Source: a virus
Virus record (IMG/VR): IMGVR_UViG_3300045940_000045
Location: 1 to 41,027 of that record
Length of the DNA: 41,027 nt
Reading direction: 5' to 3' (one strand)
The position numbers were made by a program, and so were the translations under genes. The notes under the pieces are model-generated. The model was not told the origin of the DNA. It worked only from the letters and a program-made list of their open reading frames with translations, and did not search any database. This document shows, in pieces, positions 18,076 through 34,661 of the stretch (positions are counted from its first letter, which is position 1; every line of letters begins with the position of its first letter).

Positions 18076-18108
18076 AGGGCCCGTTGCTCACTTTGAGCAA
18101 CGGGCCCT
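18076..18108. terminator. Convergent intrinsic terminator between the two blocks
   Basis: A perfect 15-bp stem (18076-18090 with 18094-18108) around the loop CTT. On the + strand it is followed by TTTCTACTTT, a fair U-rich tail; on the - strand the tail is TGTTC, weaker. It lies between the last + gene (stop 18054) and the end of the last - gene (stop 18116), so it probably stops transcription in both directions. Confidence 0.9.
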
Positions 18109-18115
18109 TTCTACT

Positions 18116-20899
18116 TTAGAAGAGCGGGATTTTCTTGTGGACGAACAGGTCGAGGATGTCGTTCGGTGCGACGCCTGTATGCTGCGCGGTGCGCCCGACC
18201 GCGTCCTCGAAGATTTGCCAGAACTCCGGTCGCGCGCGATTCAAGCCGAAGACGCCGGTGCGCGGTCCAGCCCCGCCCCACTGCGCGGCCTGTACGGCCG
18301 CCGTCGGGTCGCGACCGGATGGCACTCTGACCAACCCCTGATCGGCGAACTCCGCAGCTTTCTCCGCGAACGCCTGCGAGTACGGGTCCCAGAACACGCC
18401 CATGTCGGGGCTCTTGTAGCTTCCGTTCAGCGGAAGACCGTAGTCGATGGCCGCGCGCTTCCCGTGGATGTCGAGCACATGGCGTGCCCAATCACCTCCG
18501 AGTGCGAACGCGTAGGGCTGCGCCTTTGGCGCGTTCTCAATCGGCAGCACACCGCCGTTCTGTTCGAGCAGCCGTAGCATCTTGCCAACCTGCGTTGGAT
18601 AGAGCGGGCTGAATCCCGGCGAGTACATCGGCGATGTCGGGTTCGCCGTCCTGAAGTATTGGTAGCCCGCGTTGCGAAGGTTCGGTACCGGTGGCGTCTG
18701 TATCGACGTCGGGCCCATGAAGCCCATCAACTCGTTGAAGGCCGCCGAGCCCGCGTCGGTCCCGAGTCGGCTGATGAACTCGCGATAGATCGGATCGGTG
18801 TTGTACCAGTAGTCGAAGCCAAGGTCCGCGCCGCGCCGCACGTCTTCGGCGAAGAGCGGATTGTCGAGGACATGCCGCGCGATGTCGTAGCGACGCCGCC
18901 ACTCACCGCGCTTCAGCGGAGTTGGTAGCCCCTCGGTGCCGCCGAGGATTTCGCTCTGTGGTACGCGCAGGATCGAGCCCGGCTCCGCGTAGTTGAGCGC
19001 GAAACCCGACTCGGGACGCCCGTGCAGCTTCTCCATCGGCGCGATGTTCGGTACGCCCTCGCTCGGGTCGAACAGTGAGCGAAGCAGCCCGACCGGCCGG
19101 TCATTCACGCGCGCGGCGCTGAGCAGGTCCGTCGGCACCGGGAATTCCTGCGCGTGATTGAACGGATTCATCAGGTCCGACGAGTGAAGCTGCGTATACT
19201 GCGACGCGAGTCGTGGGGCCTGACCGGTTGCTCCGGCCATTGTTCGCGCTTCCTCGCGCGTGATCTGACGCCCGCGCGTTGTTTGGAAGCCTTCGGAGCC
19301 TCGGATCGTCGCGTTGCCGCGATTGCGCTCGATGGCTGCACGGCCCTCGGGCGTTGCGCGGAGCGCCTCTCCGGCCGCCTCGCTCGCGAGCGCATGATTG
19401 GCTCCCGTGTAGTAGTTGCCATCCGCGCCCTGCACCGATGGCATTTTGATCCGTTCGGGCACAATCGACGGATAGTCGCCCATCAGCGCCTCAGGCCACA
19501 GCGCGGCCTTCTGCTCGCTGAACGGACGCGTTGGGGCGGGAACGTCCTTGTGCGGGCCGTAGTTGAACCACGAATTCTGCCCGCGCGTCTCGGTCGCCAT
19601 GACGCGGCGCGCTTCCGGCGAGTACATCTGCGCGTGCGAGCGGAACGCATTCTCTTCGCCGCGCGCATTGAATGACACCTCGTCAACGCCGTGGCCCACA
19701 ATCTCATGGACTGCGCGGAAGAGGTTGTTCTGCTCATTCGTCATCAGCGGGTGAGTCTGGTCACCCTGCGTCTTGTAGACCTTGATGTGATGATTCTCGC
19801 GCAGGTCGCGCAGCATCGCCTTACTGCCGCCCTTTGATGGCGGATACGGATCGTAGTCGACGAACTCCCACGAGTACCCGGCGTTGCGGAGTGCTTCCGC
19901 CTGCGCCATAGTCTCGTCGTTGAACGCGCGGTAGGCGCGGACGACATCAGGATTCGTCGGGTCTGACTTCAGGTTCTCGTAGGCTTCCGCCATCTGCGTT
20001 GCCGCACCCTCATCGACCTTGTCGATGCGCGGCAGCCCCTCGTCGCCGCCCATGCTGCGGCGGAACATCGTGCGGACGTCCTGAAGGGTGTTGCCGGTGC
20101 CGCCAAGGATCGACGGAGCGCCCTCGGGCAAGAATGGAGCGCGGGGAGTGAACGCCGGAGCTTCAGCGGCGCGCGCCTGATCGAGGCGGCGCAGGAGACC
20201 CATGACGTCGACGGGCGTGTGCGCTTCACGGGCCGGACCTGCCTGACGCGCAGCGCGCTCGGCATCACGTTCGGCCTGCGCGGCGCGACGGCGCTCATAG
20301 GTTGGGCGGTCGAGGCCTTCCTTCGGAAGGTTGGGGTCCGGTACCGCGCGCTCGGAAGCCAGCCGCGCGCGAGCGCGCGCGCGAGCCCCGGCGCGCACCT
20401 CGGCCTTGCGGCCAGCGCGAAGCAGCATCGCGTTCGCGACCTGCTCGGTCGCATTGCGTGCGATTTCGCGCGGAGCGACCTCGTTGTCGACGAGGCGCGG
20501 GTGCCCGTTGTTCCACTCCCACAGTCCGCCGCCCTGCATCGCGCGCTGAGCGTTGTACCCCATCGTCGCCATGCCCTGCGCGGCGTCGCGGATGGTCTCG
20601 ATGGGCCCGAGCGGTTCACCGCGCCCGCGTCGCCGCAGCGCGCGATGAATCTCAGCGTCTACATCGACGCCCTGCGATTCGAGTGCCTTCCGTGTCTCAG
20701 GGTCGCGCAACTCTTCGAGTGTGTACGAGCCGATGCCCTGCAGGAGATTGATAGGAAACATGACGAGGCCCTTGGCGGTATTCCAAAGGCCTTCGCCAAT
20801 CCCCGACGCGACCTCATCGGCCGTGCCGGGGACGTACTCATATCGCGGCTCGCCGAATCGGTCGTAGCCAACAATCCTGCGCTTTGGTTTGTCCGGCAC
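18116..20899 (-). CDS. Large internal virion/ejection protein with HExxGH-EENA-ETRGQN module
   Basis: 927 aa, GTG start. N terminus (RRIVGYDRFGEPRYEYVPG, then a hydrophobic ITGLV-like patch MFPINLLQGIG) and long Arg/Ala-rich helical region (150-230) fit a phage internal or ejection protein. The middle carries a compact motif set: H398-E399-I-V-G-H403, GEENAFRSH (E415, E416, H422) and ETRGQNSWFNYG (E437). This domain recurs in large phage 'polyvalent' proteins. The HE-x-x-G-H spacing is that of the 2-His ligand pair in aromatic amino acid hydroxylases rather than HExxH proteases. A late half (TGANHALAS to the C terminus) is globular. Last gene of the late block, next to the terminator. Enzyme function is inference. 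Confidence 0.7.
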   Translation of the reverse strand: MPDKPKRRIVGYDRFGEPRYEYVPGTADEVASGIGEGLWNTAKGLVMFPINLLQGIGSYTLEELRDPETRKALESQGVDVDAEIHRALRRRGRGEPLGPIETIRDAAQGMATMGYNAQRAMQGGGLWEWNNGHPRLVDNEVAPREIARNATEQVANAMLLRAGRKAEVRAGARARARARLASERAVPDPNLPKEGLDRPTYERRRAAQAERDAERAARQAGPAREAHTPVDVMGLLRRLDQARAAEAPAFTPRAPFLPEGAPSILGGTGNTLQDVRTMFRRSMGGDEGLPRIDKVDEGAATQMAEAYENLKSDPTNPDVVRAYRAFNDETMAQAEALRNAGYSWEFVDYDPYPPSKGGSKAMLRDLRENHHIKVYKTQGDQTHPLMTNEQNNLFRAVHEIVGHGVDEVSFNARGEENAFRSHAQMYSPEARRVMATETRGQNSWFNYGPHKDVPAPTRPFSEQKAALWPEALMGDYPSIVPERIKMPSVQGADGNYYTGANHALASEAAGEALRATPEGRAAIERNRGNATIRGSEGFQTTRGRQITREEARTMAGATGQAPRLASQYTQLHSSDLMNPFNHAQEFPVPTDLLSAARVNDRPVGLLRSLFDPSEGVPNIAPMEKLHGRPESGFALNYAEPGSILRVPQSEILGGTEGLPTPLKRGEWRRRYDIARHVLDNPLFAEDVRRGADLGFDYWYNTDPIYREFISRLGTDAGSAAFNELMGFMGPTSIQTPPVPNLRNAGYQYFRTANPTSPMYSPGFSPLYPTQVGKMLRLLEQNGGVLPIENAPKAQPYAFALGGDWARHVLDIHGKRAAIDYGLPLNGSYKSPDMGVFWDPYSQAFAEKAAEFADQGLVRVPSGRDPTAAVQAAQWGGAGPRTGVFGLNRARPEFWQIFEDAVGRTAQHTGVAPNDILDLFVHKKIPLF

Positions 20900-28835: not shown

Positions 28836-29597
28836 TTACGCCAGAGTGATGATTCTTGACTGCTGGCCCAACTCTGGGTGCTGGGCCAAGTATTGTTCCG
28901 CGTGTGGGGCCATGTAGGCGAACTCACCGAGGTGAGCAATCTCCTTCGAGATTTCGTGATCGAGGATCAGCGGCACTCCGGCCTCTTCGAGCTTGAGACA
29001 GAAGTAGACGTCCTCGCCCATATGCCCGCCCGGCTTCCCGCTCGGCTGAATCTGCGGGTTGTAGCCCACCATGAAGTAGGGCTTCGACAGCTTCTCGCGG
29101 ATCATGTCCGTCCGCAGCAGAATGACGCCGAACCCGATGGCCGCGATGCGCTGCGTCGCCGGTGACTGCGCGGTCGTATACGCGCGCATCCCGTAGTCCT
29201 TCGAGTCAGTGAACGCGACCGGCCGGAACGGCTCGCCGCGCTCAGTGTAGTTCGCGCAGACGGCGGGCGCGTGATGGTTCAGCATCCTCGGGATGAGATT
29301 CTTCGGGAACCGCATGTCCGAGTCGAGAAACAGAATGTGCGTGATGCTCTCGTGCGCGAGTACCGTATCGACCAGATTCTCGCGCTGGCGCGGGATCAGC
29401 GAGCCCTTCGCCATGATGATCTTCAAGTCGATGACGTCGGACAGATTCAGCGCGGTCCACGCCATCATTCTCGCTAGATCGTAGGCGAAGAAGGTCTTCA
29501 CTTCGTCGCCGCACGGGATGCAGATTGCCACGACCGCCTTCGGCGGCTTCACGGGCTCGGCCTGCTCCGCTTGAATCACTGTCTCGTCCCCGCTCAT
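28836..29597 (-). CDS. Glycosyltransferase, GT-A (family 2-like)
   Basis: 253 aa; start ATG 29597, placed by AGGAG eight bases upstream. Nucleotide-sugar fold: VVAICIPCGDEVKTFFA, LKIIMAKGSLIPRQRENLVD, and the metal motif D92-S93-D94 in HILFLDSDMRF. Later GFGVILLRTDMI and GEDVYFCLKLEEAGVPLILD supply the acidic acceptor-side residues (ED) typical of GT2-like/Anp1-like enzymes. No membrane segment. It sits among structural genes, between the 103-aa protein and the adaptor; it may glycosylate a virion protein or host glycan. Confidence 0.83.
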   Translation of the reverse strand: MSGDETVIQAEQAEPVKPPKAVVAICIPCGDEVKTFFAYDLARMMAWTALNLSDVIDLKIIMAKGSLIPRQRENLVDTVLAHESITHILFLDSDMRFPKNLIPRMLNHHAPAVCANYTERGEPFRPVAFTDSKDYGMRAYTTAQSPATQRIAAIGFGVILLRTDMIREKLSKPYFMVGYNPQIQPSGKPGGHMGEDVYFCLKLEEAGVPLILDHEISKEIAHLGEFAYMAPHAEQYLAQHPELGQQSRIITLA

Positions 29598-29609
29598 TGT
29601 CCCCACTCC

Positions 29610-33230: not shown

Positions 33231-34661
33231 TTATGCCGCGAGCAACGCCACGGACGCAGCGTTGATTGCGCGGTCGAAGATGTATAGCTCATCAAACGAG
33301 CCCCACGGCTTCGTCGAGCTAAAGTTGTTGCCGATGAATGATCCAACGCCGTAGACGCCGGAGTCGACTGCAACAACATTGATCGCGGCCTGCGACGAGA
33401 TGAGAACGCCATCGAGATAGAACCGCAGTTTGTTCGCCGCCACATCGTTCACGACCGCGATGTGGTGCCACCCGGCCGAGAGCGACGCGCTACTGATGCC
33501 CGACTCGTAATCGTTGTTGACGCTGATCGACCCAGCGCGCGCCTTAAACGTCCCGCCCGCACGCACAAGAAATTGGCACTGCGGCGATGCGATGCCGTTG
33601 TGATCCATCAGGTAGTTCTCGCCGCTGCCCCAGCTTCCTTCGCCGAGGTTGAACCGCACAGCCAGCGACCATGACTGGTTGCCGTTGAATCGCGCGAGCG
33701 CGTCGGTCGGCTGATAGACGCCGTCGGTCGCCGTGTTACGGCAGCCCTTACCTGAGTACGCCGTGAACTTCTCCATGTGAAACGCGCTGACGACCTCGCC
33801 CGGCAGGACGATGCTGCTGCCCGGCGCGTGCCCACCGCCGCCCCGGCCACTCGAAATGAGCGGCGCGGTTGATGTCTCGTTGCACGAGAAATAGTACAGC
33901 GGGTCCGAGACGTCGGGGCCCGGCAGAATCTCGCCGTCCGCCGTGCCGTCGACCGAGTCGGTCGTGGCCGTGATCGTGACCGAACCTTCGAGGACGCCGG
34001 TGACGAGCCCGTTCGAGTCGACCGTCGCCTTCGTGCCGTCGCTCGTAGCCCAAGTGAACGTCTTGCCCGAGATGATGACGTTGCTCGAATTGTACGCCGT
34101 CGCCGTCAACTGAACCGTGTTGCCTTCGCCGACGGCGAACGGGTCCGGCGTCACGGTGACATGGTCGACCGTCGGCGATGTCGCGTAGATATGACACGAC
34201 GCGGTCCCCACCGCGCCGTCGATGACGGCGCTAATCGTTACGTCGCCGGTGGCGACGCCTGTGACGAGCCCGGTTGACGAGACGGTTGCCTTCGTCGGAT
34301 CGCTCGACACCCAGCCGACATCGTGACCAAAAAGCTCGTTGCCATCCTCGTCGAACGCCCGCGCGGTCAACTGCTGTGTCGTCGCCGGTGAGGCGATGAC
34401 CGAGAACGGCGTCGGCGTCACGGTGACCGTCGTCGCGAACGCAGGCACCTCGGGCTGATTGCCGCCGACCGATGCCGTCGCGGTGTATTCGCCGCGCGGC
34501 CAGATTTGCCCGTCGTCCGGCCGGTCGCGCAGCGCCCCGAGGAAGGGCTGGGGAAACCGCCCGCCCCGCGAGAAGGCCTGCGCTGGCTGCAGCCGAAACG
34601 TCTGCTCGGCCGCGAGTAGCGTCAGCACCTCGACGCGCTCGACGTTCTCAAGATTCGCCAT
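33231..34661 (-). CDS. Virion protein with two BIG2 Ig-like domains and LamG-like domain
   Basis: 476 aa. Residues 1-62: a module ending QPFLGALRDRPDDGQIWPRGEY, shared with the 67-aa neighbour. About 75-160 and 163-248: two bacterial Ig-like group 2 repeats (ATVSSTGLVTGVATGDVTIS; ATVDSNGLVTGVLEGSVTIT). About 255-476: a concanavalin/LamG-like lectin domain (WSLAVRFNLGEGSW, LSAGWHHIAVVND, KLRFYLDGVLISS, FDELYIFDRAI). This is a surface-exposed adhesion architecture: virion attachment module, spacer, carbohydrate-binding head. It lies between portal and scaffold, so it may decorate the head or neck. Confidence 0.85.
   Translation of the reverse strand: MANLENVERVEVLTLLAAEQTFRLQPAQAFSRGGRFPQPFLGALRDRPDDGQIWPRGEYTATASVGGNQPEVPAFATTVTVTPTPFSVIASPATTQQLTARAFDEDGNELFGHDVGWVSSDPTKATVSSTGLVTGVATGDVTISAVIDGAVGTASCHIYATSPTVDHVTVTPDPFAVGEGNTVQLTATAYNSSNVIISGKTFTWATSDGTKATVDSNGLVTGVLEGSVTITATTDSVDGTADGEILPGPDVSDPLYYFSCNETSTAPLISSGRGGGGHAPGSSIVLPGEVVSAFHMEKFTAYSGKGCRNTATDGVYQPTDALARFNGNQSWSLAVRFNLGEGSWGSGENYLMDHNGIASPQCQFLVRAGGTFKARAGSISVNNDYESGISSASLSAGWHHIAVVNDVAANKLRFYLDGVLISSQAAINVVAVDSGVYGVGSFIGNNFSSTKPWGSFDELYIFDRAINAASVALLAA

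Follow-up and report, generated by a model that had tools for sequence, protein, structure and literature searches.

Phage SAM lyases, among them the T3 SAMase and Svi3-3, are described as early counter-defense proteins against restriction and as trimers of alpha-beta sandwiches (PMC7877911), and the T3 SAMase is reported to be the first protein that T3 expresses (PMC8406200). Among polyvalent proteins, ∼36% carry zincin-like domains, some of them with an HEXXXH motif (Iyer et al., PMC5512222). Histidine motifs close to the one analyzed here are also found in Coq4 (PF05019), whose metal motif is HDxxH-x11-E (PMC9774615). In bacterial aromatic amino acid hydroxylases (PF00351), HDVFGH is followed by a Glu at a distance of 41 residues, as counted from the fetched sequences. 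Two phage protein clusters are relevant as well: PHROG 3170, which has no assigned function, and PHROG 7806, whose proteins (LKA1 gp07, phi15 gp02, and Issaku_00001) are small and early. We analyzed a window of 41,027 nucleotides, IMG/VR virus record IMGVR_UViG_3300045940_000045, in which a late gene encodes a protein with a PHROG 3170 module; to that cluster we add a set of invariant residues, a fold model, and genomic partners.

The module is embedded in the last protein of the late unit

The open reading frame and residue numbers of the original prediction, which had been made from the sequence alone, proved exact; the frame is open on the minus strand only, a strand that the prediction had not named (Table 1). 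The carrier gene is the final gene of a leftward late unit, downstream of the genes for SU10-type capsid, adaptor, and virion proteins. Its stop lies 8 nt before a terminator-like hairpin at the point where the late (minus) and early (plus) units converge, which supports the description of the product as the last late protein. Given this position and its polyvalent-type homologues, the 927-aa carrier is probably an internal or ejected virion protein.

The whole carrier matches PHROG 3170 (E 4.7e-25, residues 300-447), as do the module alone (E 1.9e-26) and 13/13 scanned members of alignment A1. This module is the sole recognized domain of the query carrier, and neither carrier nor module matched a family in Pfam or NCBIfam. 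A scan of viral contigs with the whole 927-aa protein returned zero relatives, and the carrier is therefore poorly conserved outside the module; its stretch 690-847 is common to L111 only. Contig L015, which has 45% identity to the query over the module, additionally encodes a late virion protein of the query phage, upstream of its own carrier. Two further minus-strand genes of the window were noted by eye. One, upstream of the capsid gene (33231-34661), encodes a 476-aa protein that has Ig-like repeats in two stretches and resembles LamG in its C-terminal part, and the other, inside the late unit (28836-29606), encodes a 256-aa glycosyltransferase-like protein.

Table 1. Features of the carrier gene and its module in the window
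Feature	Coordinates	Strand	Evidence
Carrier gene, 927 aa, GTG start	18116..20899	minus	translation, PHROG 3170 match
Terminator-like hairpin, 15 bp, perfect	18076-18108		consensus scan only
Conserved module, residues ∼290-475	19475..20032	minus	homologues, two alignments, AlphaFold2
H398-E-I-V-G-H403 (family consensus HDxFGH)	19691..19708	minus	both His 116/116; helix end
E415 to H422 (E-E-N-A-F-R-S-H), second helix	19634..19657	minus	E415 and H422 invariant
E437-T-R-G-Q-N442, third helix	19574..19591	minus	E437 and Q441 invariant
Q463-K464	19508..19513	minus	K464 invariant

Key motif residues are constant in all 116 aligned members

H398-E-I-V-G-H403, E415/E416, H422, and E437 were all found where they had been claimed, together with Q441, within bases 19574-19708 of the minus strand. 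The composition of the carrier protein predicts a count of 0.0003 for H[ED]xxGH-x11-E and of 5e-7 for the same motif with H at +19 and E at +34. Conservation among the aligned sequences is more decisive than these statistics for the reality of the motif. In an alignment of 116 members, which spans phage, plasmid-type, and chromosomal copies, residues Q333, R395, H398, H403, G414, E415, H422, E437, Q441, and K464 are invariant; homologues without these residues were sought among the 116 members, and none were found. The HExxGH pattern as proposed thus holds for its two histidines, but the Glu after the first one is the exception, since residue 399 is Asp in 113/116 sequences and Glu in 3/116 (the query phage being among the three). 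G402 is replaced by Ala in six members. Of the paired acids at 415 and 416, only the first is the invariant one. Judged from the alignment, the invariance of the named residues across phages, plasmids, and bacteria supports the proposal of an enzyme-like, probably metal-binding module.

A plasmid-type branch (L012, L013, L014, L127, L128, L146, L160, and L164) has the motif HDAIAH or HDAFAH. Its proteins are ∼450 to 585 aa long and come from actinobacterial plasmids and related contigs, one of which is the linear plasmid pAL1; in the tree, these copies form a distinct branch with support of 100/100.

AlphaFold2 gave confident models of two members, the query module with a pLDDT of 91.7 and a pTM of 0.87, and a gammaproteobacterial copy (the second model) with a pLDDT of 91.7 and a pTM of 0.89. 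The predicted order of elements is the same in both: two N-terminal helices, a strand, a helix, a strand, and then three motif helices, with an extra hairpin after the second strand in the second model. HDxxGH closes the first motif helix (model residues 109-125), E415 and H422 lie on the second (133-144), and E437 and Q441 lie on the third (149-168). The spacings of E415/H422 (i, i+7) and E437/Q441 (i, i+4) place each pair on one predicted helix face. Because the loops between the helices are also short, it is plausible, from helix positions in the models, that the residues form a joint site.

Neither model gave a significant hit to a solved structure in the PDB by Foldseek, and PDB profile searches with alignments A1 and A2 returned no credible match. 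For the first model, VIA produced few rows, with IrrE/PprI and selecase at Z 2.3-3.2 (IrrE/PprI at Z 2.6-3.2) beside globins and others; for the second, there was no row at Z 2 or more.

Resemblance to aromatic hydroxylases and Coq4 is limited to the motif

The spacing of the histidine pair had been taken for that of the iron ligands of aromatic amino acid hydroxylases. The H-[ED]-x-x-G-H pair is present, taking the form HDxFGH in most of the family, and HDxFGH with a later Glu occurs in bacterial hydroxylases too, but the Glu of the module lies at +34 rather than +41. Kinship with these enzymes was not borne out: hhalign against 20 fetched hydroxylase sequences aligned the motif only (14-44 columns, probability 34%). 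Foldseek listed tryptophan and tyrosine hydroxylases for both models with E values of 1.1 to 4.3 and TM-scores of <0.2, no fold match was found, and aromatic hydroxylases were absent from the VIA rows of both models. There was no Pfam hit either, and on sequence membership in PF00351 was rejected. Coq4 differs from the module by one residue fewer between the two histidines. Membership in that family was likewise rejected on sequence, with 2.5% by hhalign against 14 fetched Coq4 sequences and a Pfam hit in one member only (E 0.19); Coq4 structures were not among the listed fold-search rows, which carries no weight either way. Both resemblances are therefore at the level of the motif, because the profile alignments cover the motif only or score low. 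As a statement of membership the hydroxylase reading fails; what is left of it is one possible mode of action.

The family is widespread and includes early proteins of T7-like phages

A tblastn search with the module recovered 201 phage records, 187 of them from Mycobacterium phages, as well as four actinobacterial plasmids, and an alignment-based scan confirmed the module in 117 genome contigs and in at least 585 viral loci. Carriers range from stand-alone copies of 189-192 aa, which Streptomyces phage Dagobah and Bacillus phage P59 carry within or next to their terminal repeats, to proteins of >3000 aa. That related modules occur in large phage polyvalent proteins, as had been suggested, was supported: many carriers are large phage proteins of polyvalent type fused to ART-PolyVal, InPase, PBECR5, RNA_pol, or LPD domains, and among 30 homologous carriers some hold ART-PolyVal, InPase, PBECR5, RNA_pol, Mu_F, LPD22, and LPD38. 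Several carriers (L005, L006, and the records behind hits H2 to H5) bear the public names “lysin,” “crystallin beta/gamma motif-containing protein,” and “RelA/SpoT,” which do not fit the module domain.

Foldseek in BFVD linked the module to small proteins from T7-like and related phages, among them LKA1 Q0E607, Percy A0A0M4R437, and one from Scott, with a probability of 1.00. LKA1 gp07 (PHROG 7806) contains NAWFRAFHDLGH and DTVGQS. Aligned by hhalign, a profile of seven T7-like proteins matched the 116-member alignment A2 at 95.6% (P 1.1e-8) over 116 columns. By profile comparison, the module is thus remotely homologous to an early protein that T7-like Pseudomonas phages encode. The two groups have the pattern N..FR..HD.GH....E....D/E-T-x-x-Q in common; the PHROG 7806 proteins have one residue fewer between the two histidines (HDxGH) and D-T-x-x-Q where the module has E437-T-R-G-Q, so that Asp stands in place of E437 in this remote branch. 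A tblastn search with LKA1 gp07 found 123 records, of which 111 were from Pseudomonas. The gene precedes that of RNA polymerase at the left end of the T7-like genomes, as the first gene in Issaku (Issaku_00001) and the second in phi15 (gp02), whereas the query module sits in a late virion-type protein. A literature search on tests of LKA1 early proteins returned nothing concerning these proteins.

Chromosomal copies adjoin sulfur- and methyl-cycle genes or a defense-like block

Stand-alone copies from Pseudonocardiaceae, Streptomyces, Nocardiopsis, Actinomadura, one Micromonospora, and one gammaproteobacterium are located in a sulfur/methyl-cycle operon. A SufS-family desulfurase and a cystathionine-synthase-family enzyme are encoded beside the module gene in all of them. 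Most also have a homocysteine S-methyltransferase gene, which may lie beyond the fetched stretch in the others, and another conserved open reading frame whose VLDVACG motif suggests a methyltransferase. SAH hydrolase is present in four of the operon loci (L141, L162, L165, and L169). In L162 (5914-12310) and L165 (2521-10828), AhcY, homocysteine S-methyltransferase, the cystathionine-synthase-family enzyme, SufS, and the probable methyltransferase are encoded together with the module. A conserved 150-residue minus-strand frame beside the actinomycete copies was dropped as an antisense overlap with the desulfurase gene.

A second set of partners involves DUF3293. In Ruegeria and Pelagibius, the module gene is accompanied by a DUF3293 gene and a SAHH-like gene, and in Actinophytocola all three are joined in one polypeptide. 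DUF3293 was detected in 5/49 viral contigs (three over the cut-off), always within the module's own polypeptide, so most phage carriers are without it. A local DUF3293-like profile added L108, where the domain is fused, and L035, L071, and L073, where it is in a neighboring gene; the query phage had no hit with this profile and no SAM-lyase match. In the phage-derived L002, a single stretch has matches to DUF3293 and to the SAM-lyase family alike, with 25.4 bits by hmmscan (below the cut-off) and 30.5 bits (above the cut-off). The SAM-lyase-like/DUF3293 domain is a recurrent partner of the module, and its link to SAM lyases depends mainly on L002. SAM lyase structures were not recovered from the PDB with profile A5 or with the L002 stretch alone, and a literature search on DUF3293 returned nothing concerning these proteins.

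Micromonosporaceae copies are arranged differently, in the gene order N6-methylase, module gene, Ser/Thr kinase, UvrD helicase, and Cas3-type (Cas3-HD) helicase. This block, present in L131, L159, L171, and 22 other Micromonosporaceae loci, looks defense-like, but it is family-wide. The copies of the SAM operon form one clade in the tree (100/99) that is distant from the query, and their substrates may therefore differ. The Micromonosporaceae copies form a separate clade (99/93), which falls with the query and several phages into a supported group of 25 rows (99/93). DUF3293-associated carriers fall on several separate branches. Exchange of the module between phages and chromosomes is likely.

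Possible functions of the module

We tentatively propose, as the most likely reading, that the module is a metal-dependent early effector, embedded in the query phage in a delivered virion protein, with a SAM-cycle metabolite as its substrate. The active site would consist of the two histidines on one helix (H398 and H403), E415 with H422 on the next, and E437 with Q441 on the third. In the query phage, the module would be packaged within the late protein and delivered with the DNA; in the T7-like relatives, it would act as a small early-expressed protein, encoded by the first gene in one genome. The substrate may be a small molecule of the SAM, SAH, or homocysteine-sulfur cycle, and the phage would benefit if SAM-dependent restriction or other host functions were blunted at entry, an early counter-defense role like that described for phage SAM lyases (PMC7877911). 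The module itself shows no sequence match to those enzymes and belongs to a different, His/Glu-rich kind of domain. A SAM-cycle substrate is suggested because the genomic partners of the family include SAM/methionine-cycle genes, and this chemistry is the best-supported hint on the substrate. Against it, the Micromonosporaceae copies, which are the nearer chromosomal kin of the query, have a setting outside the methionine cycle, the SAM-operon clade is distant from the query, most phage carriers are without DUF3293, and the query phage has no SAM-lyase or DUF3293-like match.

An unlikely alternative is a zincin-like metallopeptidase, divergent and of the polyvalent type, which after injection would cut its own carrier or a protein of the host. 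HEIVGH of the query agrees with the HEXXXH variant described in polyvalent proteins, both models have their elements in a zincin-like order (strands, His helix, and Glu helix), HDxGH of the T7-like branch has zincin spacing, and the weak VIA rows of the first model include IrrE/PprI and selecase. The catalytic Glu is nevertheless Asp in nearly all members; with HDxxGH in 113/116 and HExxGH in three, a canonical zincin was rejected by sequence. The Pfam hits of alignment A1 members include no peptidase family, the second model had no VIA row at Z 2 or more, and the chromosomal copies lie in small-molecule operons.

We consider it rather improbable that the module is a mononuclear non-heme iron oxygenase, which would hold iron by two His and one Glu in a hydroxylase-like mode outside that family and have an amino acid, thiol, or nucleoside as its substrate. 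The consensus HDxFGH coincides with the bacterial phenylalanine-hydroxylase motif, tryptophan and tyrosine hydroxylases are among the top nonsignificant Foldseek rows for both models, and cysteine- and homocysteine-handling enzymes are among the partners. Against this stand the restriction of the profile match to the motif, the displaced Glu, and the low TM-scores, and the additional invariant residues H422, E415, Q441, and K464 would be left unexplained. Slightly less probable still is that the module serves structure or packaging in ejected virion proteins, with its conserved residues holding a structural metal. Large virion-type proteins are common among the carriers, and the copy of Rhodococcus phage E3 is annotated “structural protein,” but the stand-alone copies of Dagobah and P59, the early genes of T7-like phages, and the chromosomal operons without virion genes all argue against such a role.

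Extended to the whole family, the early-effector proposal becomes more doubtful: the module would represent an undescribed metalloenzyme superfamily acting on SAM/methionine-cycle metabolites, used by phages as a first strike against methylation-dependent defense, either ejected with the DNA or made from early T7-like left-end genes, and later acquired by the chromosomes of actinomycetes and proteobacteria. The module is widespread, with more than 180 mycobacteriophage records among its carriers, yet it is without a Pfam or NCBIfam model. It is known from virion-type proteins and early genes of well-studied laboratory phages of Pseudomonas putida and Mycobacterium smegmatis, and its function is therefore directly testable. 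If the substrate does belong to the SAM cycle, the module would add a second chemistry beside the SAM lyases to early anti-restriction.
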